Source of the DNA: Candidatus Ornithospirochaeta stercoravium
Lineage (GTDB): Bacteria > Spirochaetota > Spirochaetia > Sphaerochaetales > Sphaerochaetaceae
NCBI GenBank assembly: GCA_017694915.1
Contig: JADIMF010000122.1
Span: 1-38,798 of the forward strand
Direction: 5' to 3'
DNA length: 38,798 nucleotides
The position numbers and the translations under genes are program-made. Each line of letters starts with the position of its first letter. Position 1 is the first letter of the stretch. The notes beneath the pieces are model-generated. The model was not told the origin of the DNA. It searched no databases and saw only the letters and a list, made by a program, of their open reading frames with translations. Below are positions 2,299 to 12,798 of this stretch, one piece after another.

Positions 2299-3117
2299 AT
2301 GCATTGTGTTGTACCGGAAGCTGAGGAAATACTCGACAAGGAATTTCCCGTTCTCGATCATGGATTCGTAAGGCTTGTGGATTACCTTGGATCTGACCAG
2401 CGTATCGTTCAGTCAGCGCGTGTAAGCTACGGAGAGGGTACAAAGACATACAGGCAGGATAAGGGTCTCATCAATTATCTTATGCGCAATGAACATACAT
2501 CTCCTTTTGAGCAGGTTGTATTCACATTCCATGTGAAGATGCCAATCTTCGTCGCGCGTCAGTGGACCCGTCACAGAACAGCTCGCATGAATGAGATCTC
2601 CGGTCGTTATTCTGTTATGAAGGACGAGGTATATATTCCTGCAGATGAGAATATCGCACTGCAGAGCGAGGATAACAAGCAGGGAAGGAAGAATGAGCCT
2701 GTGTCCCCTGAGATGGCAGAGGAAGTGAAGGCGATAATGGCTTCCGATCAGGAGAGAGCTTTCGCGAATTACCATAAGATGCTCGATATGGGAATTGCAC
2801 GTGAGATAGCGAGAATCGATCTCCCGCTTTCCCTTTATACAGAGTTCTACTGGGAGATAGATCTGCACAATCTCTTCCATTTCCTGAAACTCAGGCTCGA
2901 TTCCCATGCTCAGTATGAGATAAGGCAGTATGGTGAGGTGATGCTTGAGATAGTAAGGAAGGTATGCCCTATAGCAACAGATGCTTTCGAGAATCATGTA
3001 CTTCACTCAAAGACATTCTCATCCCATGAGGTAGAGGCAATAAAGAAGATGCTCAGCGGTGAGGAATGCCCTCTTGAGAAGAGGGAGAAGGAAATCTTCC
3101 TTGAGAAACTGAAATAA
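2299..3117 (+). CDS. thyX: FAD-dependent thymidylate synthase ThyX
   Basis: Makes dTMP from dUMP using methylene-tetrahydrofolate as carbon donor and reduced FAD, replacing ThyA. The ThyX signature RHRX7S is complete: Arg91-His92-Arg93 through Ser101 in RHRTARMNEIS, followed by GRYS. The 272-residue length suits the longer ThyX forms. The start ATG is preceded by AGGAGG with a 5-6 nt spacer, in contrast to the leaderless first gene of this operon. It is the last gene of the operon and is followed within 25 nt by a strong intrinsic terminator. Confidence 0.96.
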   Translation: MHCVVPEAEEILDKEFPVLDHGFVRLVDYLGSDQRIVQSARVSYGEGTKTYRQDKGLINYLMRNEHTSPFEQVVFTFHVKMPIFVARQWTRHRTARMNEISGRYSVMKDEVYIPADENIALQSEDNKQGRKNEPVSPEMAEEVKAIMASDQERAFANYHKMLDMGIAREIARIDLPLSLYTEFYWEIDLHNLFHFLKLRLDSHAQYEIRQYGEVMLEIVRKVCPIATDAFENHVLHSKTFSSHEVEAIKKMLSGEECPLEKREKEIFLEKLK

Positions 3118-3218: not shown

Positions 3219-4001
3219 ACCAGAGCTGAATTCCTTAGGAGTATTGATTGCCTTGAGTATGAAGATGCTTACGATGCTTTTCCTTTGACAGAAGGAGTCC
3301 GTAACGCTTTCTTTCTCGATTTCCCTTCCTTTGCCAAGCTTGGAGAATCATCTGATAATCCAGGGCTTTTCTACCTCTCTTCATATCTTCAGCTTGCATA
3401 CGAATGCCACGAAAAGTATTCAGAGCGGGGTATTTCCGATGATATATATTTTGCTACATTCTCAGATATATCTGTCTGGGCATCGTGGTATCAGAGGCAT
3501 ACAGGTAAGGTTGGATTGGATAGAATCAATTGGCTGCGTCACCATGTGAACTTGGAGATATTCCGTCTAGGAGAGCTTCAGGCAGAGCCTGCTATAAAGC
3601 CTCTTGATGATGTCTGGAAATCTGTAGATACATCATTACCCTTGTTTTTCATCCATATTCCTGAAGGCGTGGATCTCTCAAAGGCCGAGGACTCGTTCCA
3701 ACGGATTCTGTCATTCTTCCATTGCAGCAAAGCTATGTTTCTCATCCATTCCTGGCTGCTGTCTCCTGAGGTAGCGTGTATGCTTGATGAGAAATCCAGA
3801 ATAAGAAATTTCGCATCTCTTTTCACTCTCCTTGGGACAGAAGATGACCGGCAGGCTGAGGAGCGTATATTCGGCTTTATTTCCGACAATCCATTTTCAT
3901 ATCCAGAATCATCTTCACTTGCAGTGAAGGCGAAGAAATATCTTGAAAGCGGAGGAAGAATACTCTCCGGATATGGGTATAGGGAAGTCAGTCTGAAATA
4001 A
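3216..4001 (+). CDS. GNAT-like C-terminal-domain protein (predicted acyltransferase family)
   Basis: A 261-residue soluble protein of unproven function. The middle and C-terminal parts match what I know of the GNAT_C family ('acyltransferase domain-containing protein'). These are a YLQLAYECHEKYSERGISDDIY-like segment (about 56-78), a TFSDISVWASWY segment, WLRHHVNLEIFRLGELQ, FFIHIPEG and LIHSWLLSPE. Family members usually carry a full N-terminal acyltransferase-like domain. This protein has only about 55 residues before the conserved part, so it may be shortened or diverged there. The substrate is unknown. It is a single-gene unit with its own leaderless-type promoter, and its 3' end overlaps the convergent zinc-ribbon gene by 14 bp. 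Confidence 0.72.
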   Translation: MTRAEFLRSIDCLEYEDAYDAFPLTEGVRNAFFLDFPSFAKLGESSDNPGLFYLSSYLQLAYECHEKYSERGISDDIYFATFSDISVWASWYQRHTGKVGLDRINWLRHHVNLEIFRLGELQAEPAIKPLDDVWKSVDTSLPLFFIHIPEGVDLSKAEDSFQRILSFFHCSKAMFLIHSWLLSPEVACMLDEKSRIRNFASLFTLLGTEDDRQAEERIFGFISDNPFSYPESSSLAVKAKKYLESGGRILSGYGYREVSLK

Positions 4002-4335
4002 TCTTTCTGTTCCAGCTCTTCTTCCCGCACTTCGGGCACCTGAGGTGTCTTGTCCTTCCTATGTGTGCTGAGAGAAGCATCGCCTTTCTTTCAGGAATGT
4101 ATTTATGTCCACATTCCCTGCATTCATACCAGCCTGCAGTCCTTTCGATTTCCAATGCCATAAGTACACTGACAATGAGCAGGACAAGGCTTACTGCGAA
4201 GATGATGAAGAATGCCGCTGTTCCTGGAATGCAGAGCGCTATAAGCATGATGATTGCTATGAAGAATATGACGATAACAGATGTGAATACTGTTTCTGCT
4301 TTCAGAAGCAGTTTCTCATACTCTTTCTCTTTCAT
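3988..4335 (-). CDS. Small membrane protein with C-terminal zinc ribbon
   Basis: Unrecognised 115-residue protein. A charged N-terminus is followed by two hydrophobic segments (about 16-36 and 39-60) that probably form a transmembrane hairpin. The cytoplasmic tail has two CxxC pairs (CRECG near 73-77 and CPKCG near 99-103) separated by about 25 residues, a classic zinc-ribbon spacing. The ATG at 4335 lies within the 3' end of the hydrolase gene (20-nt overlap), with GGAG just upstream. It is the third gene of the SPL-like/hydrolase operon. No enzymatic motif is visible; a structural or sensing role is possible but not shown. Confidence 0.72.
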   Translation of the reverse strand: MKEKEYEKLLLKAETVFTSVIVIFFIAIIMLIALCIPGTAAFFIIFAVSLVLLIVSVLMALEIERTAGWYECRECGHKYIPERKAMLLSAHIGRTRHLRCPKCGKKSWNRKIISD

Positions 4336-4987
4336 TTGTCTCCTCGATTATTATTCTCGCAATCTTATCGGAATGGACGATATATGATTCATGATGCTCG
4401 GATGGGATAATCATGAGCTTTGAATCAGGGATAGAGGAGGCGATGAATTCCGTGTCGCTTCTTTTCACCAGATCTTTCTCTCCCGCTGTCACAAGTACAG
4501 GTATTTTTATCGATTCAAGCTCTCTTTTCCTTATATGAGGTTCAGATAGCATCAGGTTTATGAGTTTATCCCTTGTCCTCTGATAGGCATTCCATGCGCT
4601 TATCCTGAACCAGAGCTTGAGAGCGCTTGGTTTCGTATTTGCTCCGCTTACTATGAGATGACTTGCGGTTCCCGGATGTTTTATTTCCATTATCAGGGCT
4701 GTGATTCCTCCATCTGAAAAACCGAAGATGACAGGCTTTTCGATTTTCAGGAGTTTTATGAAGGCATATAGATCCTCAGCAAGAAGAGAGTAGTGTATTT
4801 CCTTCATCTTCGTGCTCTCCCCATGACACCTTGTGTCGATACGGTAGACCATGAAATGCTTCTCAAGAAGTGGAAGCGCCTCATCGAATATCGTCATGTC
4901 CTCGCCGTTGCCATGAAGGAGAATCAGAGGTTTTCCCTCTCCTGATATTTCATAATGCAGCTTCAGCGGTCCCATATCCAGAAACAT
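4316..4987 (-). CDS. Alpha/beta-hydrolase fold protein
   Basis: A 223-residue serine hydrolase of unknown substrate. The fold is clear: ILLHGNG oxyanion-hole motif (22-28), nucleophile elbow GFSDGG with Ser91, acid Asp172 in TAGEKDLV, and a histidine in SEHHES (198-199). It is short, with little room for a lid domain, and has no signal peptide, so it is probably cytoplasmic. The ATG overlaps the stop of the upstream SPL-like gene as TAATG, which implies coupling. The zinc-ribbon gene overlaps its 3' end. The family covers esterases, lipases and peptidases, and nothing visible narrows it down. Confidence 0.88.
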   Translation of the reverse strand: MFLDMGPLKLHYEISGEGKPLILLHGNGEDMTIFDEALPLLEKHFMVYRIDTRCHGESTKMKEIHYSLLAEDLYAFIKLLKIEKPVIFGFSDGGITALIMEIKHPGTASHLIVSGANTKPSALKLWFRISAWNAYQRTRDKLINLMLSEPHIRKRELESIKIPVLVTAGEKDLVKRSDTEFIASSIPDSKLMIIPSEHHESYIVHSDKIARIIIEETNERERV

Positions 4988-6225
4988 TATCTTCTTCTCT
5001 CCTTAAGCATGTTTATCTTCTCTTCATAATGCTTTCTCATGTCAATTTCAAAATCACTGTCCCGTTCATATTCCCGGCCAAGCACCGGAAGCCAGAGAGA
5101 AGGATCTTCCATACATAAATAGAAGAACACATTCTTATGGAAGCTGTCTGAGAAAGAATTGTATACATGGCTGAAAAGCTTTCTCTTGATGTCCAGAGGG
5201 TAGGAGAATTTACCCGCAGCAGGTGTGAGTTCCATCTCAAGAACCCTGCTTTCATCTCCTCTTTCACGCAGATGCCTTAAGACGGATTTGGTGAATGTAA
5301 GCGTTCCGATGCTTGTCAGGGCAACATCATCAGGAGAAAAACGCTTCTCGATTTCCTCTGCTATCAATTTGTATTCATCTTCCCAGCCTCTGAAATATAC
5401 CATCGGGTGTATATGGAAGCCTACGAGATTTCCGTTATCCCTCGCTCTCTCAGCATTCTCGAGCCGGCCTTCGAGCGTTGCCGTCATATGCTCTTCCTTT
5501 TCGATGATGGTCGGTGCATTGAGAGACCATGTGAAAAGCATATTCGCAGGGTATTTCCTGTCAAAGACATTTCTTGCGGATTTTGATTTAAGTTCTATTA
5601 CTACATCAGGATGCTGTTCTGCAAACGCAGAGAGGGCGGAAAGCGTTCCGTAATCATCTCCGAGCACGAGCGAGTCGGAGGCCTGTCCTGTTCCTATGTG
5701 CCATACAGATGGATCAAGTTCGAGCGCCAGAAGCTTTTCCTTCAGGTTGCTGACGGCATGTATTTCGTTCTCTGTATAGAAAGCCTGCACGGAACAATAT
5801 GAGCAAGAGAACGGACACTGCATCACCGCATCGAGGGTTGTAAGCTTGCAGCATCTTGTCTTCTCGCCATCGACAGGGCATGGACATTTTCCGGGAACGA
5901 TCTTCTCGTCTGAGAGTATCGTCCTGTATTTCGGCCGCGGATGAAAATCGGGAGAGAAAGATGAATAATCAGTTTCACTTTTTCTCAGATCATCCATATA
6001 GCTTCGCATAAGGCGCATGTACGCATCGCCTTTTCTGCCGTCTTTTCTCGCGTCGATTTCTTCATAGGGAGCGAGGAGGCAGAATGACTGTTCCTTCCAT
6101 TGCCTTAGATCGGCTTCAGCCTTCGCTATTTCAAGCTTCTGGCTTTCCGTGAAGTGATAACGTTCAAATAGTTTTTCGATATCCCTGCTGTCAAGAGAGG
6201 CAATGAGTTCATTCAATGCGGCCAT
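4987..6225 (-). CDS. Spore-photoproduct-lyase-like radical SAM protein
   Basis: A 412-residue radical SAM enzyme related to SplB. The cluster motif CPFSCSYC (Cys137, Cys141, Cys144; CxxxCxxC spacing as in SPL) is followed by SVQAFY. A GTGQASDSL segment (178-186) corresponds to the place where genuine SPL carries its hydrogen-donor cysteine; here there is glutamine or alanine instead. Four extra cysteines (114, 116, 125, 126) precede the cluster. A helical region of about 110 residues extends the N-terminus. I start it at the ATG at 6225 because it sits 6 nt after a TATACT -10 box; a TTG seven codons upstream lies upstream of that -10 box. It heads the operon with the hydrolase and zinc-ribbon genes and diverges from uvrC. 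A repair or nucleic-acid role is inferred, not shown. Confidence 0.83.
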   Translation of the reverse strand: MAALNELIASLDSRDIEKLFERYHFTESQKLEIAKAEADLRQWKEQSFCLLAPYEEIDARKDGRKGDAYMRLMRSYMDDLRKSETDYSSFSPDFHPRPKYRTILSDEKIVPGKCPCPVDGEKTRCCKLTTLDAVMQCPFSCSYCSVQAFYTENEIHAVSNLKEKLLALELDPSVWHIGTGQASDSLVLGDDYGTLSALSAFAEQHPDVVIELKSKSARNVFDRKYPANMLFTWSLNAPTIIEKEEHMTATLEGRLENAERARDNGNLVGFHIHPMVYFRGWEDEYKLIAEEIEKRFSPDDVALTSIGTLTFTKSVLRHLRERGDESRVLEMELTPAAGKFSYPLDIKRKLFSHVYNSFSDSFHKNVFFYLCMEDPSLWLPVLGREYERDSDFEIDMRKHYEEKINMLKERRR

Positions 6226-6231
6226 GATTTG

Positions 6232-6260
6232 AGTATAAGTTGTCAAAGCTGTTTCGAGAA
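6232..6260 (-). promoter_or_regulatory. Predicted leaderless promoter of the SPL-like operon
   Basis: On the minus strand, TATACT (6237-6232) is followed by 6 nt and the ATG at 6225. TTCTCG (6260-6255) is a 17-nt-spaced -35 candidate. It is interleaved with the divergent uvrC promoter. Confidence 0.6.
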
Positions 6261-6277
6261 GCTATTCTCAAGCTATG
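6240..6277 (+). promoter_or_regulatory. Predicted leaderless promoter of uvrC
   Basis: TTGTCA (6240-6245), a 17-nt spacer, TATTCT (6263-6268), then 6 nt to the ATG at 6275. This is the best-formed leaderless promoter in the window; no ribosome-binding site could fit in the transcript. Confidence 0.8.
6256..6269. promoter_or_regulatory. Candidate operator palindrome between uvrC and the SPL-like gene
   Basis: A perfect inverted repeat GAGAA-N4-TTCTC. It covers the uvrC -10 box and the -35 position of the divergent gene, so a bound repressor would block both. Its geometry (5-bp arms, 4-bp gap) resembles Gram-positive-type LexA boxes, and a lexA gene lies in this window. The sequence differs from known boxes, so the assignment is an inference. 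Confidence 0.4.
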
Positions 6278-8050
6278 TCGGAAAGCGCAAGGAATCAGGC
6301 GAGGGAGCTTCCGGATTCTCCGGGATGCTACCTTATGAAGAATAAGGAAGGAACTGTTATATATGTCGGAAAGGCGAAGAACCTCAAGCGGCGTGTTTCC
6401 TCATATTTCCTTCCGAATAGGAATGCCAAGACAGCTGCGCTTGTCGAGAAGATTGATACCATTGATTTCGTCATAACTGGTAATGAGTATGAAGCTCTGA
6501 TCCTCGAGAACAATCTGATCAAGAAATACAACCCTCATTACAACATCCTTCTAAAGGATGGGAAAAGCTACCCTGTCATAAGAATCACGAAGGAGAAGTT
6601 CCCCCGTATATTCAAGACAAGAAGAGTCATAAAGGATGGTTCTCAGTATTTCGGGCCATATCCAGACGGGATGAAACTTGACACCTATCTCAAGCTCGTG
6701 GGGGATAATTATCCTCTGCGCCTCTGCTCAGGGCCTCTTAAGGAGAGAAAGACACCATGTCTCTATTACCATATACACAAATGCTCGGGCCCATGCATTG
6801 GTGCTGTTTCCGAAAAGGATTACGGCGTCTATGTGAAGGAGGTCAGGGATTTCCTTTCAGGTGATGACTCCTCGATGATCAAGCAGGTGGAGCGGGAGAT
6901 GCAGAAGAGCGCGAAGGAGCTCGACTTCGAGACTGCCGCAAGAAAGCGTGACCAGCTTCAGGCCCTGACCGTGATGCAGAAGAACCAGATGGTGGAGGAT
7001 TTCACCACAGACAGCCGAGATTATGTTGCTATCGAGATGCGTAGCTACCTCTGTACTATCTCCATAATGCAGTTCCGCTCCGGGCGTCTTATCGGGAAGG
7101 CATTATATAGGGCTGAATGCCTTGGTGATGAGACCGAGACGCTCTTTTCATTTCTTGTGCAGTATTACAGCGATGGTGATACGCTTCCGCAGGAGATATT
7201 CGTTTCCTGCGATATCGACACGGAGCTCCTTGCGAAATACTTCAATGAAGAGCTCAGAAGTCCTGTTTATATCACTGTGCCGAAGGATGGAAAGCATTAC
7301 AGAATCCTGCGCATGGCTGCGGAGAATGCCTCAAGAGATGTGGAGAAACGTCTTCGTGATGTTGATAACACACCGTCTCTCGAGGCTCTTCAGAAAGAAC
7401 TCGGACTTGAGGATATCCCTCGTCATATCGAGGGCTTTGATATCGCGCAGCTATCCGGAAAGTATACAGTCGCCTCTCTTATTGTTTTCAGGGATGGAAA
7501 TCCTTCGAATAAGGAATACAGGCATTTCTCCATAAAATCCCTTGAAGGGAAGATCGATGATTTCCAGTCCATGAGGGAAGCAGTTGGAAGACGTTATCAG
7601 AGATTGCTGAATGAAGGCGCTGAGATGCCAGATCTCTTGATGGTCGATGGCGGAAAGGGACAGGTGAGTGCAGCACTCGATTCATTATCTGCACTTGGAC
7701 TGGATTTTCCTGTGGTAGGACTTGCAAAAGAACATGAGGAAATCGTATTCCCCGGCGATAGGGAATCCCTTCTTCTTGACCATAGCGATCCAGGTCTTCG
7801 TGTTCTCATCGCTGTCAGGGATGAGTGCCATAGATTTGCTACTTCATTCAACCAGAGGATGAGAAGCCGCGACGCCTCCTTCTCCCTTCTTGAGTCGATA
7901 GATGGAATAGGTCCGGAGAGATCGAAGAGGATAATGCAGAAGTACGGATCAGTCGAGGCAATCCTCAGCCTGTCTCCCGATGAACTTGCAAAAGGTGCAT
8001 CGATACCGAAGAATGTCGCAGAGAGAGTGATTCACAAGCTCAGCTTCTGA
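6275..8050 (+). CDS. uvrC: Excinuclease ABC subunit C
   Basis: Makes the dual incisions flanking DNA lesions in nucleotide excision repair after UvrAB loading. The 591-residue length and domain order are standard. The N-terminal GIY-YIG nuclease (PGCYLM at 16-21, IYVGKAKNLKRRV at 29-41) performs the 3' incision. A cysteine-rich segment (CSGPLKERKTPCLYYHIHKCSGPC) and a UVR motif (about 205-240) that contacts UvrB follow. Then comes the RNase H-like 5' nuclease (IEGFDIAQLSGKYTVAS, LMVDGGKGQ) and terminal helix-hairpin-helix motifs (SIDGIGPERSKRIMQKYGS). The ATG is positioned 6 nt after a strong -10 box. It is a single-gene unit whose 3' end overlaps convergent holA by 11 bp. Confidence 0.98.
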   Translation: MSESARNQARELPDSPGCYLMKNKEGTVIYVGKAKNLKRRVSSYFLPNRNAKTAALVEKIDTIDFVITGNEYEALILENNLIKKYNPHYNILLKDGKSYPVIRITKEKFPRIFKTRRVIKDGSQYFGPYPDGMKLDTYLKLVGDNYPLRLCSGPLKERKTPCLYYHIHKCSGPCIGAVSEKDYGVYVKEVRDFLSGDDSSMIKQVEREMQKSAKELDFETAARKRDQLQALTVMQKNQMVEDFTTDSRDYVAIEMRSYLCTISIMQFRSGRLIGKALYRAECLGDETETLFSFLVQYYSDGDTLPQEIFVSCDIDTELLAKYFNEELRSPVYITVPKDGKHYRILRMAAENASRDVEKRLRDVDNTPSLEALQKELGLEDIPRHIEGFDIAQLSGKYTVASLIVFRDGNPSNKEYRHFSIKSLEGKIDDFQSMREAVGRRYQRLLNEGAEMPDLLMVDGGKGQVSAALDSLSALGLDFPVVGLAKEHEEIVFPGDRESLLLDHSDPGLRVLIAVRDECHRFATSFNQRMRSRDASFSLLESIDGIGPERSKRIMQKYGSVEAILSLSPDELAKGASIPKNVAERVIHKLSF

Positions 8051-9110
8051 GGCCTTCTCCTCCGAGAAGCGGTTCATTGATGCATATATCCTCTTCCATC
8101 CCTTTACGCATGATGATTGTATAGAGCAAGGATGAGAACATCATCGAAATCCATTCGCTTCCGGTGCCTTTTATATCAGTGTCCATCTTTCCAAGGTACT
8201 TTATTATCCTGCGTGTGTCGGGAAGGGGATAGGAAGAAGCCGCTTTCCTGAACATCGGCCAGTCTCTTTTCTTTATACCTTTCCCCTGATAGAAAGCTGT
8301 GAATGGTGTGATCGCCTCGGCATTCGCGAAGGCAGATTCATCTCCCTGTCCTGAGGCTTTCAGCTCCTCATAGCTCTCAAGCTCCCTGAAGCGCTGAACG
8401 ATTGTCGAGAAGGCTCTTCCCGATGCTGTGGAATCTGCATTGATGATTGATGCAAGTATCGACTCTGCATGCTCCAGATCACACTCCGCAATAGCCTGGA
8501 AGAGCGTATTCCCATCTTCTCCTCGTGTCTGGAGCGAGTATTTCCGTATATCGTCAGGAGTGATTTCATGTTTCGATTTATCCGTGGCATGGAAATAGAT
8601 AGCGAGTGCTGAGACAAGGTTCCTCATCTCAGCTGTATTGTTGTCTACGGAGAAAAGCACTTCATCGACACCTTCATCGCTTATGAAGAAGCCTTCTTTC
8701 TGGAATGCCGACTTTATCCAGCCGCGTTTCTGGTTGTCGAACATCTCCCAGAACATTATCACGCTGACGTTCTTGCTGTCCGTTATCTTCTTCCCGAGTT
8801 TCGTCGATGACTTTTCAGAGGAAATAACAACGAATTCTGCGTCGTCCATTCCTGATTCAAGGAAGGATATTATGGCTTTGTCGAATGTATCACGTGCGGT
8901 TCTGTTCTCGTACTGCTTTACGATCACGAAACGGAATGACGAGAAGAGCGACTGCTGGGAAAGTGCCGCATCCAGATCCTCTCCTTTGTCATCACCTACG
9001 AATATCTGGTGAATCTCCGCATCCGGATGCTCAGAGAGCACGCGTTTCTTCTCCTCATTAAGCCAATCTGCTTTCTGGCCTTCCTCAGGACCCAGAAGAA
9101 AGTAGTTCAA
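8040..9110 (-). CDS. holA: DNA polymerase III delta subunit (clamp loader)
   Basis: Clamp-loader wrench subunit that opens the beta sliding clamp. The 356-residue length and overall layout fit HolA: an N-terminal FLLGPEEGQKADW segment in place of a classical P-loop, QQSLFSSFRFVIVKQYE (beta-binding helix region), and a C-terminal helical collar domain. The start is TTG at 9110. AGGAGG, which encodes Arg-Arg near the end of lexA, lies 8 nt upstream, and the TTG overlaps the lexA stop as TTGA. There is no in-frame ATG until far into the protein. It is the last gene of hprK-ptsH-lexA-holA. Confidence 0.88.
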   Translation of the reverse strand: MNYFLLGPEEGQKADWLNEEKKRVLSEHPDAEIHQIFVGDDKGEDLDAALSQQSLFSSFRFVIVKQYENRTARDTFDKAIISFLESGMDDAEFVVISSEKSSTKLGKKITDSKNVSVIMFWEMFDNQKRGWIKSAFQKEGFFISDEGVDEVLFSVDNNTAEMRNLVSALAIYFHATDKSKHEITPDDIRKYSLQTRGEDGNTLFQAIAECDLEHAESILASIINADSTASGRAFSTIVQRFRELESYEELKASGQGDESAFANAEAITPFTAFYQGKGIKKRDWPMFRKAASSYPLPDTRRIIKYLGKMDTDIKGTGSEWISMMFSSLLYTIIMRKGMEEDICINEPLLGGEGLRS

Positions 9111-9715
9111 TGATAATCCCTCCTAATGGATATAAGACGGCCAAGTATCCTTAAGCTGCTTTCTGCCGCTTTTATCACTCCCATTGTATCATTATCAGGG
9201 ATAAGAAGTGCATACCCGTTCCCGATTCTTCTCAGCCTTCTGAGTTCCGGGATCATCTCATCATCCCCAAGGGATGCCAGTACGATATCGCCATCGGCTT
9301 TTGCGATGTCTGCATCGGCCATGACTGCGAAATCTCCTGGAAGGATGCCTCCGTTCCTCATTGATTCCGATGTCACCTTGAATGTGAAAGCGGCTTTCTT
9401 CGTTCTAGGGATGAATATCCTTTCCTCTGTTCCTGCAGAGAGAACTGCATACGATGGTTCCGCCTGATAGAAAGGAACTGCGTTGTTCTCCCTTTTCAAT
9501 CTCTCATTAAGAGGGAATGTGAGGGATCTCAGTCCGTTATCTATTTTTTCGAGATAGCCTTTCCTGACTAATGTAGCTACTGCATCACGAGCTGCGATAT
9601 GAGAGAAACCGAAGGCCTCTCCGATTTCCCGCAGCGATGGCGAGCGTCCGTTGGTGTAAATGTAAAGCGAGATGAAATCCAGGATCTGCTTCTGCCTATC
9701 TGTGATGTCCTTCAA
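9107..9715 (-). CDS. lexA: LexA-type repressor with arginine at the catalytic lysine position
   Basis: The N-terminal winged helix (about 1-66: TDRQKQILDFI, then SPSLREIGEAFGFS) matches LexA. The C-terminal S24 peptidase domain holds the Ala94-Gly95 cleavage-site pair (VLSAGTEE), nucleophile Ser118 in SESM, and the GGILPGDFAV and GDIVLASLGDDE segments. The residue matching Lys156 of E. coli LexA (the K of VTVKRL) is Arg159 here, in ELRRLRR, and no lysine lies nearby. Self-cleavage may therefore be reduced or work differently. The start is TTG, overlapping the ptsH stop as TTGA, with AGGAG 9 nt upstream; no earlier ATG is available. Being downstream of hprK-ptsH is an unusual setting for an SOS repressor. 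It may instead be a LexA paralogue with its own regulon. Confidence 0.85.
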   Translation of the reverse strand: MKDITDRQKQILDFISLYIYTNGRSPSLREIGEAFGFSHIAARDAVATLVRKGYLEKIDNGLRSLTFPLNERLKRENNAVPFYQAEPSYAVLSAGTEERIFIPRTKKAAFTFKVTSESMRNGGILPGDFAVMADADIAKADGDIVLASLGDDEMIPELRRLRRIGNGYALLIPDNDTMGVIKAAESSLRILGRLISIRRDYH

Positions 9716-9975
9716 GTCTCGAATCTCCTTTCGAAAAGATCATCAAGCGCAGCCATCGCCTCTTTTTCATCGGGCCCGGAACAAGTGCACCTGATCTTCG
9801 TCTTATATGTTGCTCCCAGCGTTATAATGCCCATTATCGATTTGGCATTTATCTTCATATCGTCTTTCTCAAAGAAGATATCGGAGGAGAATGATGAGGC
9901 GGTCTTCGCAATCTCTGAGGCAGGACGGGCATGGATGCCAGCCCTATTAAGCACCTCCAGTTCCTTACTGATCAA
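9712..9975 (-). CDS. ptsH: HPr phosphocarrier protein
   Basis: Small phosphocarrier of the PTS or a regulatory HPr. Both regulatory sites are present: RAGIHARP with the EI-phosphorylated histidine, and NAKSIMGI with the HPr-kinase serine. I choose the TTG at 9975 over the ATG at 9984. The TTG places these residues at exactly His15 and Ser46 of canonical HPr. AGGAG is then 9 nt upstream, as for lexA, whereas it abuts the ATG directly. The resulting 87-residue length is normal. It overlaps the hprK end by 11 nt, and its stop overlaps lexA. No EI or EII genes are in the window, so sugar transport versus pure regulation cannot be decided. Confidence 0.92.
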   Translation of the reverse strand: MISKELEVLNRAGIHARPASEIAKTASSFSSDIFFEKDDMKINAKSIMGIITLGATYKTKIRCTCSGPDEKEAMAALDDLFERRFET

Positions 9976-10972
9976 TTTCGCCATCTCCTCCGCTCAGAAT
10001 CTCATCGCTGTTGAAATACATCTTCCTTGCAGCTTCGCTCTCAAGCCACTTGAGTACATTCTGGTCGAATTCCTTCGATGAATAATACCCGAGTTTCTTC
10101 ATTCTTTCGTTTCCCGCAGCTGTTTCTATGAGGATAGGAACATTCCTTCCAGGACGGACGGGAAGGACGAGCTTCGGTATCGTGATACCTAGATATGTAT
10201 CAGTAAGCGAATCTCCGATTCTGTCGTACTGCTTTCCAGACTCCCAGTTCTCGAGAACAACTGAAAGCTGCACGTGCTTCTTTTCCCTGATTGCGCCTAT
10301 ACCGAAGAGATTCGCGATGTTTATTATTCCGAGTCCTCTTATTTCCATGTGGTGCGCTAGCAGGGGATTCTCTCCTGTCCCGATAAGGAAGGTATCTGAG
10401 ATGTTCTTCAGTTTCACCGTGTCATCGCTTATGAGCCGGTGTCCGCGTTCAATCAGCTCAAGCGCTGTCTCGCTCTTGCCGACACCGCTATCTCCCGTGA
10501 TAAGCACTCCAATGCCATATACATCTACAAGTACACCATGGATTGTCATCGTGGCGGCAAAGACCTCATCAAGCTGTGAATACAGACGGCGTGAGAAGTC
10601 TGATGATTCAAGCGGGGTGGAGAGAATTGCTGTGGCATTTTTCTCGGCGAGCTCAACGAAATGCTCGGAAGGCTTGTAGCCGCCGATGAATACGATACAA
10701 GGCGGTTCGTATGAGAAGATTCTTTCTATATTCTCGTATTCATTCTTCTTCTCAAGCATTTCTATATATGACTGTTCAGCTCTTCCGATGAGCTGGATGC
10801 TTGAGCCTGAGAAATCCTCGAAATAACCGGTAAGTGCCAGTCCCGGTCTTGATATCTTTGAGTTCTTTATTGTTCTTGAAAGCCCGGATCTGCCGGCTAT
10901 GCATTTAAGCTGCAGATGGTTATGTTCCCTTAAATCGAGATCTAACAGATCGAGGACGGTGAATTCTCTCAT
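9965..10972 (-). CDS. hprK: HPr kinase/phosphorylase
   Basis: Bifunctional enzyme that phosphorylates HPr on Ser46 with ATP or PPi and reverses the reaction, coupling carbon status to gene expression. The 335-residue protein has an N-terminal receptor-like domain and a C-terminal kinase core. The Walker A motif GDSGVGKS (160-167) and the ELIERGHRLISDD segment (Asp183/Asp184) are present. So is the HprK signature EIRGLGIINIANLFGIGAIR (about 210-229). The ATG at 10972 is 6 nt after TATACT. It is immediately upstream of and overlaps its substrate gene ptsH. Being first in a unit with lexA and holA links carbon signalling and replication/repair genes at the transcript level. Confidence 0.97.
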   Translation of the reverse strand: MREFTVLDLLDLDLREHNHLQLKCIAGRSGLSRTIKNSKISRPGLALTGYFEDFSGSSIQLIGRAEQSYIEMLEKKNEYENIERIFSYEPPCIVFIGGYKPSEHFVELAEKNATAILSTPLESSDFSRRLYSQLDEVFAATMTIHGVLVDVYGIGVLITGDSGVGKSETALELIERGHRLISDDTVKLKNISDTFLIGTGENPLLAHHMEIRGLGIINIANLFGIGAIREKKHVQLSVVLENWESGKQYDRIGDSLTDTYLGITIPKLVLPVRPGRNVPILIETAAGNERMKKLGYYSSKEFDQNVLKWLESEAARKMYFNSDEILSGGDGEIDQ

Positions 10973-10978
10973 GATCTG

Positions 10979-10984
10979 AGTATA
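10979..10984 (-). promoter_or_regulatory. Predicted leaderless promoter of hprK-ptsH-lexA-holA
   Basis: Minus-strand TATACT (10984-10979) ends 6 nt before the hprK ATG. The -35 is weak (TTTTAT about 17 nt upstream) and falls in the T-rich tail of the hpf terminator. Confidence 0.55.
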
Positions 10985-11000
10985 TCACAAGAGGAGAAGG

Positions 11001-11039
11001 CATAAAATAAGGGCCATCCAGCCTCCACTGAATAGCCCT
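11001..11039 (-). terminator. Intrinsic terminator of hpf
   Basis: A 12-bp stem including G-U pairs (11010-11021 with 11028-11039) with a 6-nt loop. On the minus strand it is followed by the T-rich TATTTTATG (11009-11001). It lies just after the hpf stop, separating hpf from hprK. Confidence 0.85.
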
Positions 11040-11046
11040 CAGATCA

Positions 11047-11343
11047 TCAGATCTTCATTGTTTTCTCTTTTTCCTTCTTTGCTGCAGCCTGGATCTTATC
11101 CGCGAGCAGCTCTATACCTTCATAAAGCTCATAGGCATCCTGGGAGACTACTTTTTCTTTCTTCCAGGTGAAGTGAAGAGTTGCATCAAGATGGAAACCG
11201 ATGCCCTTGCTTTCCTTCGTTGCCACGATATCGAGATCGTGGAGATAGTCATCCGCGAACGAAAGCTTCTTCAGTTTCTTGTCGAGAAACTCGCGATCTT
11301 CGTCCGTTGGTGTGAATCCGATGCCTCTAAATGTTAGATTCAT
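11047..11343 (-). CDS. hpf: Short-form ribosome hibernation-promoting factor
   Basis: Binds the 30S subunit near the decoding site and helps form inactive ribosomes in slow growth. The 98-residue length and sequence (NLTFRGIGFTPTDEDREFLDKKL, then HLDATLHF) fit the HPF/RaiA N-terminal domain alone, without the C-terminal dimerisation domain of long HPF. It is one of only two first genes here with a true 5' leader: AGGAGG lies 4 nt before the ATG, about 20 nt after the predicted transcription start. Its position directly after rpoN matches the rpoN-hpf order of proteobacteria. It has its own promoter and terminator, so it can be expressed independently. Confidence 0.94.
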   Translation of the reverse strand: MNLTFRGIGFTPTDEDREFLDKKLKKLSFADDYLHDLDIVATKESKGIGFHLDATLHFTWKKEKVVSQDAYELYEGIELLADKIQAAAKKEKEKTMKI

Positions 11344-11369
11344 ACTGCCTCCTTTTTCTCTTTTTTATG

Positions 11370-11398
11370 ATTATACTGCATGAATCTGGATAAAACAA
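11370..11398 (-). promoter_or_regulatory. Sigma70-type promoter of hpf
   Basis: Minus strand TTGTTT (11398-11393), a 17-nt spacer, TATAAT (11375-11370). The start codon is 26 nt further on, leaving a short leader with AGGAGG. This contrasts with the leaderless units around it. Confidence 0.85.
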
Positions 11399-11424
11399 AA
11401 GAATATTGGATGAAGATCAATTAT

Positions 11425-12798
11425 TCATTTTGTTCTTGTGAAAGATGAATCTATATCCAGCTCTTTCCTGTATTTGCTCACAGTACGGCGGGCTGTCTTT
11501 ATTCCCTTTGCAAGAAGCGCATCGCTTATCTTCTGATCGGAGAGAGGCTTCCCCGTATCGTTTTCCTCTATTATCTGCTTTATCATCTCCTTCACAGCGT
11601 TCTTTGAGAGGTTCTCATTGCTCTCTGACGCGACAGTATTGGAGAATAATGATCTGATAGGGTAGATGCCGAAATCGGTGTCAATATATTTGGATGAGGC
11701 TATGCGGCTTATTGTTGCCTCATGGACTCCGACTTCATCGGCAACCTCCTGCATTGTCATTCCTTTGAGATATAAAGGACCATTGAGGAAGAAATCCTTC
11801 TGCTTTTCCATCAGCACGGCACCTGTTTTCTCTATTGTCTTTGCCCTTATATCGAGCTGTGAGATGAGATTGCTTGCGGCATTGAGTTTGTTCTTTATGA
11901 ACTGGGCCGCTTCCTTTCCTTCCTTTGTGCTGTTCTTCTTATATTCATCTGCGAGGTTCTTATACTCCGGGTCGATTTCAACAGAAGGGAAGGCTTCGCT
12001 GTTTAGGTGCATTTTCAGTACCCCGTCTTCCTTTTTTATCGATAGCTCCGGGATGATGTATTCTTCATATTCAGAACCGTATTTTCTTCCCGGAAAAGGC
12101 GTGAGTGTCTTCAGAAATTCATAGAAGGCGTTGACTTCTTCTGTCTCGATTCTGAGATTCTTAGCTATCTGGGCGAATTTGCCGAGTCTTGCGTTATCGA
12201 GTTCACAGCAGACGAATTTCCTGAAAAGCGAGAGTTCGTCCCCCCTCATTCCCTTGGCTTCAGCCTGTATTATGAGGCTTTCCCTCCAGTCCATTGCTCC
12301 GACGCCATCTGGTTCCATGTGCTGGATGATTTTGACAGCTTCTTCCACATAAGTTTTCTCGTTCTCCTTGACTATCGTTTCAGGAGATGCTGGAAAGAAT
12401 CCGTTCCTGTCCAGGGAAGTTATAAGCGTCTCTGCTGTTCTTTTTACATTCTCATCGATATTCAGACAGCCAAGTTCCGCAAGAAGATGCGTCTTCAGGT
12501 TTTCCTTTTCTCCGACCATGCCTTCCATCCAGTTAGTATCCTCCCTGTCATCCGGAAGATATGGAGCATCATCTGAAAAGCTTTCCCTTCTGTCTGTGCG
12601 CTGCCTGTACTCGTTTGCAATGCGATCATAGGAACTGCTGCTGTCATTGACGATCAGAGCGGGATTTGTCTCGGCCTCTTTCTTTATCTTCTCCCTCAAT
12701 TCTTCCTGTGAGAGTGAGAGTGTTTCCATTGTCTGCATCAGCTGGACATTAAGCTTCAGCTCCTGCTTCAATGAAAGTTCGAGGCCTTGCTGCATCAT
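11425..12798 (-). CDS. rpoN: RNA polymerase sigma-54 factor
   Basis: Alternative sigma factor that needs AAA+ activators and recognises -24/-12 promoters. It is 457 residues long. The glutamine/leucine-rich region I (LELSLKQELKLNVQLMQTMETLSLS) contacts core RNAP and activators. The core-binding domain occupies the middle, followed by a helix-turn-helix (MQEVADEVGVHEATISRIASSKYI) and the RpoN box ARRTVSKYR (436-444). The ATG overlaps the lptB stop as ATGA; a second ATG directly follows and could be used instead. No sigma-54 activator is in the window. It closes the YmdB-like/RseC-like/lptCAB unit. Confidence 0.97.
   Translation of the reverse strand: MMQQGLELSLKQELKLNVQLMQTMETLSLSQEELREKIKKEAETNPALIVNDSSSSYDRIANEYRQRTDRRESFSDDAPYLPDDREDTNWMEGMVGEKENLKTHLLAELGCLNIDENVKRTAETLITSLDRNGFFPASPETIVKENEKTYVEEAVKIIQHMEPDGVGAMDWRESLIIQAEAKGMRGDELSLFRKFVCCELDNARLGKFAQIAKNLRIETEEVNAFYEFLKTLTPFPGRKYGSEYEEYIIPELSIKKEDGVLKMHLNSEAFPSVEIDPEYKNLADEYKKNSTKEGKEAAQFIKNKLNAASNLISQLDIRAKTIEKTGAVLMEKQKDFFLNGPLYLKGMTMQEVADEVGVHEATISRIASSKYIDTDFGIYPIRSLFSNTVASESNENLSKNAVKEMIKQIIEENDTGKPLSDQKISDALLAKGIKTARRTVSKYRKELDIDSSFTRTK

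Follow-up and report, generated by a model that had tools for sequence, protein, structure and literature searches.

A spore photoproduct lyase-like radical SAM protein of Candidatus Ornithospirochaeta stercoravium with glutamine at the donor-cysteine position

Introduction

In spore photoproduct lyase (SPL), a hydrogen atom given up by residue C141 is relayed through Y99 and Y97, with regeneration of SAM, according to the sections of two papers that treat the mechanism (PMC5368176, PMC3742179). The donor can lie elsewhere. In the SPL of C. acetobutylicum the donor cysteine is not at position 141, and an upstream residue across the pocket, C74, is used together with a conserved tyrosine (as given in part of PMC5368176). 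The title of PDB entry 4rh0 gives its protein as C140A/S76C. In the G. thermodenitrificans numbering that is mostly used below, the three residues of the relay are Cys140, Tyr98 and Tyr96 (141, 99 and 97 in B. subtilis).

Several other radical SAM systems offer points of comparison. In the futalosine pathway, adenosyl addition by the radical SAM enzyme MqnE is paired with a nucleosidase, MqnB. Lipoyl synthase (LipA) has cysteines upstream of its radical SAM motif, in a spacing unlike the one described below. In the hopanoid pathway, adenosyl addition by HpnH (adenosylhopane synthase) is followed by the action of the nucleosidase HpnG (the phosphorylase), as outlined in part of one paper (PMC12583986).

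The protein considered here, P0001, is encoded in a 38,798-nucleotide stretch of the Candidatus O. stercoravium genome (contig JADIMF010000122.1), referred to as the window. An earlier note made from the letters of the window alone had described it as an SPL-like enzyme with no hydrogen-donor cysteine. A search of the open-access literature found no paper on the function of the P0001 family, which does not show that none exists.

The protein and its predicted fold

The P0001 gene starts with the ATG at 6225 and runs to a stop at 4987 on the minus strand, and an alternative TTG start is possible at 6246 (Table 1). It is single-copy in its own genome, a draft that is 94% complete. P0001 scores 42.8 bits against the Pfam SPL model PF20903, above the gathering cut-off of 27. 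It falls far below the cut-offs of two NCBIfam equivalogs, TIGR04070 for SPL (48.5 bits, cut-off 400) and TIGR03886 for the SPL family protein (11.2 bits, cut-off 437.55).

Table 1. Features of the P0001 gene and its surroundings (positions in the window)
Feature	Coordinates	Strand	Basis
SPL-like radical SAM protein P0001, 412 aa plus stop	4987..6225	-	open frame, PF20903, fold match to SPL
Upstream cysteine group, C114-P-C116-x8-C125-C126	5848..5886	-	at least three upstream Cys in 118/118 T1, 50/50 T2
Cluster motif C137xxxC141xxC144 (C137-PFS-C141-SY-C144); Y143 matches SPL Y96	5794..5817	-	sequence and SPL alignments
S145, at the position of the SPL relay residue Tyr98 (Gt)/Tyr99 (Bs)	5791..5793	-	alignments; S/A in 118/118 T1
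GTGQASDSL (178-186); Q181 at the position of the SPL donor, Cys140 (Gt)/141 (Bs)	5668..5694	-	profile/PDB alignment, hhalign, T1 count
K215, aligned with SPL K174	5581..5583	-	alignment; invariant in A1 and A2
S234, aligned with SPL S195	5524..5526	-	alignment; invariant in A1 and A2
FYLCMED with invariant C371, directly after a predicted strand	5104..5124	-	alignments, model
Alpha/beta hydrolase, directly downstream	4316..4987	-	PF00561 2e-18; same gene family in 11/78 loci
Small protein, hydrophobic stretches and CxxC pairs	3988..4335	-	sub-threshold zinc-ribbon matches only
uvrC, divergent neighbour	6275..8050	+	Pfam; family in same place in 65/78 loci

An AlphaFold2 model of P0001, calculated from alignment A2 (56 rows, i.e. 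the query and 55 of 68 non-redundant loci), has a pLDDT of 90.4 and a pTM of 0.89, and its weakest part is in blocks between residues 91 and 160. Foldseek places SPL first with this model (1.6e-12) and human lipoyl synthase next (2.3e-5). VIA gives a Z of 25.4 and an rmsd of 2.5 Å to SPL over 265 aligned residues (model residues 95–372); the families that follow are MqnE (Z 14.5) and lipoyl synthase (Z 14.4), and a family missing from the VIA rows is not counted as evidence. The likeness in fold to SPL that the earlier note had seen is upheld by the structure prediction. Alignments and model show that P0001 keeps the predicted SPL fold, the CX3CX2C cluster site (C137, C141 and C144) and the putative SAM-binding residues. 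Fold, motif, Tyr96 and SAM contacts are those of the B. subtilis and G. thermodenitrificans enzymes (PF20903; PDB 4FHC-4FHG). P0001 differs from these SPLs in its N-terminal stretch, of which residues 1–94 are unaligned, and in having about 40 more residues at the C-terminus.

Distribution and tiers of the family

A search with P0001 alone finds matches in 84 of the 119 genomes of its family. With profile A1, built from 23 of 49 loci, relatives turn up in 125 of the 247 genomes of the phylum and in 36 of the 200 from Campylobacterota. A scan of genome contigs confirmed 550 relatives; 80 of these were retained as named loci, almost all of them from Spirochaetota and two, 44–46% identical, labelled Campylobacterales. 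The 271 loci with a match yield 189 non-identical sequences, which by the final cut fall into three tiers: T1, the kind to which P0001 belongs (118), T2 (51) and T3 (20, comprising T3a and T3b). A tree of 71 sampled rows places T1 on one side of a branch (100/100) and T3 likewise (100/99); the rows labelled T1s include one Campylobacterales record (L128), and the position of SPL is unsure because its branch is long. T3b (L245–L249, L192, L193 and the Spirochaetota f17 loci) constitutes a separate SPL-like branch with tyrosine exactly at the donor-cysteine position. Two homologues, L012 and L026, are each interrupted within the matched range by a single in-frame TAG, from assembly error or decay.

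Viral or plasmid carriage of the SPL-like gene was considered and set aside; none was found in two viral-contig scans or in plasmids. A search of a phage set gave two distant matches, T3b-type and bacterial-looking. These two records (L272, MT835514.1; L273, MT835770.1) are named Bacteriophage sp., and by eye they carry ordinary bacterial genes (glycerol kinase-like, SulP-like). They may be bacterial contigs.

Residues of the hydrogen relay

The earlier note had read GTGQASDSL as the donor segment with no cysteine in it, and this is borne out. Q181 falls on SPL C140 both in HMMER (A1 profile against PDB chains) and in hhalign (A2 against G. thermodenitrificans SPL), so the hydrogen-donor cysteine is absent from the 140/141 position of P0001. 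S183 and D184 align with SPL S142 and D143 in both comparisons, and K215 and S234 with K174 and S195 in that of the A1 profile with PDB chains. These four SPL residues we take to be SAM contacts, hence the presumed role of K215 and S234; their counterparts are invariant in the P0001 family alignments. Ten residues are invariant in all 56 rows of A2: Q181, S183, D184, C116, C125, C126, C137, C141, C144 and C371.

The donor-equivalent residue is Q in 118/118 T1 sequences (106 by pattern, 12 by eye), E in 51/51 of T2 and in 4/4 of T3a, and Y in 16/16 of T3b (13 by pattern, 3 by eye). In the T2 and T3 profiles, E and Y align with SPL C140. Loss of the donor cysteine is not special to P0001, but marks a family of hundreds.

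A point that the earlier note missed is the loss of the second relay residue. P0001 has S145 in place of the relay tyrosine 98/99, and the equivalent position has S or A in 118/118 T1 sequences, F, Y, I, A or V in T2, and Y or F in T3. The Tyr96/97 equivalent (Y143 in P0001) is kept in 118/118 T1. As judged from the alignments, the T1 family as a whole is shown to have Gln181 and Ser145 (or Ala) in place of Cys140 and Tyr98 of the SPL hydrogen relay.

A putative metal site

At least three cysteines lie within the 30 residues before the cluster motif in 118/118 T1 and 50/50 T2 sequences. T2 numbers 50 in this cysteine count and 51 by the final cut; L271, counted here in T3, is T2 by the later cut. 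The four additional cysteines that the earlier note had listed ahead of the cluster are all present in P0001 (C114, C116, C125 and C126), with C114 only nearly invariant in the family. The note had overlooked the invariant Cys371, which is kept in 118/118 T1 and 49/50 T2 sequences, the exception, L252, being on a 3.4-kb contig. With at least three extra conserved cysteines taken as the mark of an auxiliary cluster, both T1 (118/118) and T2 (50/50) bear it. In two T2 sequences (L264 and L266), one of the CC pair is gone and a CPC cysteine is gained (CPC..GC, CPC..SC), as if three ligands were kept.

The simplest reading suggests that the upstream cysteines and Cys371 form a putative joint metal site. 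Three upstream cysteines, possibly with Cys371, would hold a second iron–sulfur cluster or zinc, and a role of this putative site in the chemistry is only possible. Such a site would be unneeded for a function shared with T3b, because T3b has the nucleosidase and dehydrogenase partners described below with neither the upstream cysteines nor Cys371. The upstream group is absent from T3 as a whole, L271 aside. Cys371 may also serve otherwise, since three of the four T3a sequences retain it without the upstream group; the fourth has Ala.

P0001 resembles the C. acetobutylicum SPL in having no donor cysteine at 141. It differs in that C. acetobutylicum SPL has the upstream donor C74 and a conserved tyrosine (PMC5368176, in part), whereas the P0001 family has three to four upstream cysteines and has lost Tyr98. 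Compared with the B. subtilis and G. thermodenitrificans enzymes, the upstream cysteines and Cys371 are additions. Lipoyl synthase resembles P0001 in that its radical SAM motif is preceded by cysteines; a correspondence of C371 with its cluster serine would be conjectural.

The locus and its own genome

The genes downstream of P0001 are as the earlier note had them, an alpha/beta hydrolase and a small protein, the latter with weak zinc-ribbon matches. The divergent uvrC neighbour was missed. In the survey of homologue neighbours that the note had proposed, 78 of the 80 named loci had a usable gene (two of the 80 being those labelled Campylobacterales). Here uvrC is divergent in 65/78 loci and the hydrolase family is found in 11/78; at a number of Campylobacterota loci there is a nucleosidase or a short-chain dehydrogenase (SDR). 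Another downstream gene family is near in 26/78 named loci. Adjacency to uvrC was rejected as proof of a repair role; it is seen in Spirochaetota loci only and may therefore be lineage synteny. An SOS link through a LexA box was looked for by eye in the uvrC intergenic sequences, and no obvious palindrome was seen. A phage-defence role was also rejected, as PADLOC gave no match for P0001 or the hydrolase and chance-level matches only for the small protein.

A thyX gene (PF02511) at 2299–3117 is close to the P0001 gene, and its family is near in 36/78 loci. Positions 8040–12798 have a row of genes on one strand with lexA, HPr, HPr kinase and sigma-54. The frame at 8040–9110 has no Pfam match; we presume that it is perhaps holA.

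The statement of the earlier note that the organism shows no sign of sporulation stands for the one marker looked at: the alpha/beta SASP family PF00269 is absent from the 94% complete draft, with a positive B. subtilis control. The flavin DNA photolyase family PF00875 is absent from the same draft, with controls positive in 8/14. As the genome is a draft of this completeness, neither absence is absolute.

Nucleosidase and dehydrogenase partners in Campylobacterota

Of 21 Campylobacterota loci (a set of 19 together with L127 and L128), nine have a PF01048 nucleosidase at position -1 or -2 and nine have an SDR nearby. A nucleosidase profile (A3, nine rows) scores at least 70 bits in 36 of the 200 Campylobacterota genomes, and the next other genome-level match is at most 34 bits. 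These are exactly the 36 genomes with the SPL-like gene (28 T1, 8 T3b; Fisher 1.6e-40, a value that ignores phylogeny and comes from a profile built from genomes in the same set). An SDR profile (A4, five rows) at 180 bits or more matches 29/200 genomes; 28 of these are among the 36 and one, G525, is not (1/164). In three genomes (G419, G548 and G361) the nucleosidase and SDR genes adjoin and the radical SAM gene is elsewhere. In N. profundicola, the SDR GAMH_0506 is next in number to the spl gene GAmH_0507 (PMC2628731, in part).

The partners recur with T3b. Of 16 T3b loci, eight have the nucleosidase at -1 or -2, seven have the SDR at +1 and 11 have at least one of the two; profiles from T1 loci alone also find the partners. 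The gut contig L273 has nucleosidase, radical SAM and SDR genes in order; L272 has SDR, a 160-aa frame and the radical SAM gene. In Spirochaetota, nine of 11 T3b-type genomes have a nucleosidase match of at least 190 bits (G122, G147, G158, G198, G218, G297, G302, G338 and G222, with G302 and G338 assigned by family f17, not by sequence); the two without are G248 and G321, whose second matches fall in T3b. Four Spirochaetota genomes (G240, G304, G328 and G342) have a nucleosidase match above 60 bits and no SPL-like match.

The nucleosidase is found in none of eight sampled Spirochaetota T1 genomes, and the best match in the genome of P0001 itself is 35.9 bits. No A3 match exceeds 32.4 bits in 61 family genomes, and no nucleosidase is near the radical SAM gene at 78 named T1 loci or at 18 T2 loci. 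As a T2 partner it is doubtful: 31 of 98 roughly T2-type genomes match at 60 bits or more, yet it is nearby at 0/18 T2 loci. These matches may represent futalosine hydrolase. The partner evidence thus concerns relatives in another phylum and not this organism, because Spirochaetota T1 genomes, its own included, are without the nucleosidase.

The nucleosidases keep E11, D113-M-E115 and S137-D138, which we take to be MTAN-type catalytic residues. They match the models for futalosine hydrolase, HpnG and MTA/SAH nucleosidase, all far below cut-off. In 10 of the 36 Campylobacterota genomes there is a second, weaker nucleosidase match, presumably a housekeeping enzyme. The arrangement resembles HpnH/HpnG in that a radical SAM enzyme is tied to a phosphorylase-superfamily nucleosidase with weak HpnG matches; it differs in that HpnH belongs to a radical SAM family of another name and the P0001 genome lacks this nucleosidase. 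The likeness to MqnE/MqnB consists of the futalosine hydrolase matches and the Z score of MqnE with the P0001 model.

Discussion

We favour, with a probability of roughly 0.55, the reading that P0001 is an SPL-fold radical SAM enzyme of a new variant that acts on another substrate, is not a spore photoproduct lyase and consumes SAM. The enzyme would cleave SAM to the 5'-deoxyadenosyl radical, which would attack a substrate other than spore photoproduct; SAM would be consumed, and either 5'-deoxyadenosine or an adenosylated product would be released. This product would be processed in Campylobacterota by the dedicated nucleosidase, and the SDR would act afterwards. Consumption of SAM is the plainest reading because two of the three relay residues are lost and all Campylobacterota members examined come with a nucleosidase. 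The suggestion of the earlier note that the substrate or the fate of the radical differs is thus well supported, by the family-wide loss of Cys140 and Tyr98, the lack of SASP and the tie to nucleosidase and SDR in Campylobacterota. A missing cysteine at 141, taken alone, does not carry that suggestion, as C. acetobutylicum SPL with its C74 and the 4rh0 protein indicate that SPL chemistry is compatible with it. Against the favoured reading are the lack of the nucleosidase in the genome of P0001 and in 8/8 Spirochaetota T1 genomes, and the uvrC gene next door at 65/78 loci, which fits a repair role.

That same neighbour, together with the precedents of C74 and 4rh0, would suit a genuine repair enzyme of the SPL type whose hydrogen donor has moved, either to C125/C126 (standing in for C. 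acetobutylicum C74) or to C371, acting on spore photoproduct or another dithymine lesion. By ungapped count C125/C126 are two to three residues from the S76 equivalent, but the profile alignments stop short of this region and none fixes the register. Such an enzyme appears improbable: Tyr98 is lost too, three to four upstream cysteines together with C371 are more in keeping with a metal site than with a single donor, no SASP gene was found in the genome, and the uvrC link is missing from the Campylobacterota loci examined. The cysteines could instead belong to a LipA-like or SPASM-like enzyme, whose auxiliary iron–sulfur cluster (C114/C116, C125, C126, C371) would give sulfur to, or take an electron from, the product radical. 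Their presence in 118/118 T1 sequences is consistent with this, as is the place of lipoyl synthase as the best Foldseek family after SPL and near the top of VIA. A Z of about 14 is, however, common to many radical SAM families, T3b has the same genomic partners without these cysteines, the model is least certain around them, and zinc is equally possible. We regard a LipA-like or SPASM-like enzyme as unlikely.

The nucleosidase itself can be read in two ways. It may merely remove the inhibitory by-product 5'-deoxyadenosine, P0001 and its relatives being ordinary SAM consumers with an unrelated substrate. Such by-product removal is one form of the favoured reading and the main rival to the adduct proposal given next; we hold it to be possible though doubtful. 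The retained MTAN-type residues, with the roles that we assume for them, would fit by-product removal. On the other side, the second, weaker nucleosidase in 10 of the 36 genomes presumably would do that job, and the SDR would be left unexplained. The by-product is known and inhibits radical SAM enzymes, as stated in part of one paper (PMC8102628). The adduct proposal, drawn by analogy with HpnH/HpnG, is that the Gln- and Tyr-type SPL-like proteins act as radical 5'-deoxyadenosyl transferases, or form a different nucleoside intermediate, in a new pathway; the nucleosidase would strip adenine from the product and the SDR would reduce or oxidise the remainder. We offer it as a rather unlikely, speculative extension.

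The favoured reading, an SPL-fold enzyme with another substrate, bears on how such proteins are named. In sporeless organisms, proteins of the P0001 sort carry the annotation spore photoproduct lyase or DNA photolyase. The N. profundicola genome paper assigns such a protein to COG1533 and counts its gene among those for DNA repair (PMC2628731, in part). A 2024 paper on LUCA, in the part that concerns this family, reads COG1533/K03716 as SPL and bases a discussion of UV exposure on it, with the caveat that non-spore, non-UV organisms carry it (PMC11383801). If much of the group is without the SPL relay and works with a nucleosidase, the UV inference for LUCA weakens; the branch of P0001 is only putatively COG1533. 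The triad of nucleosidase, SDR and radical SAM protein makes the question testable in culturable Campylobacterota.
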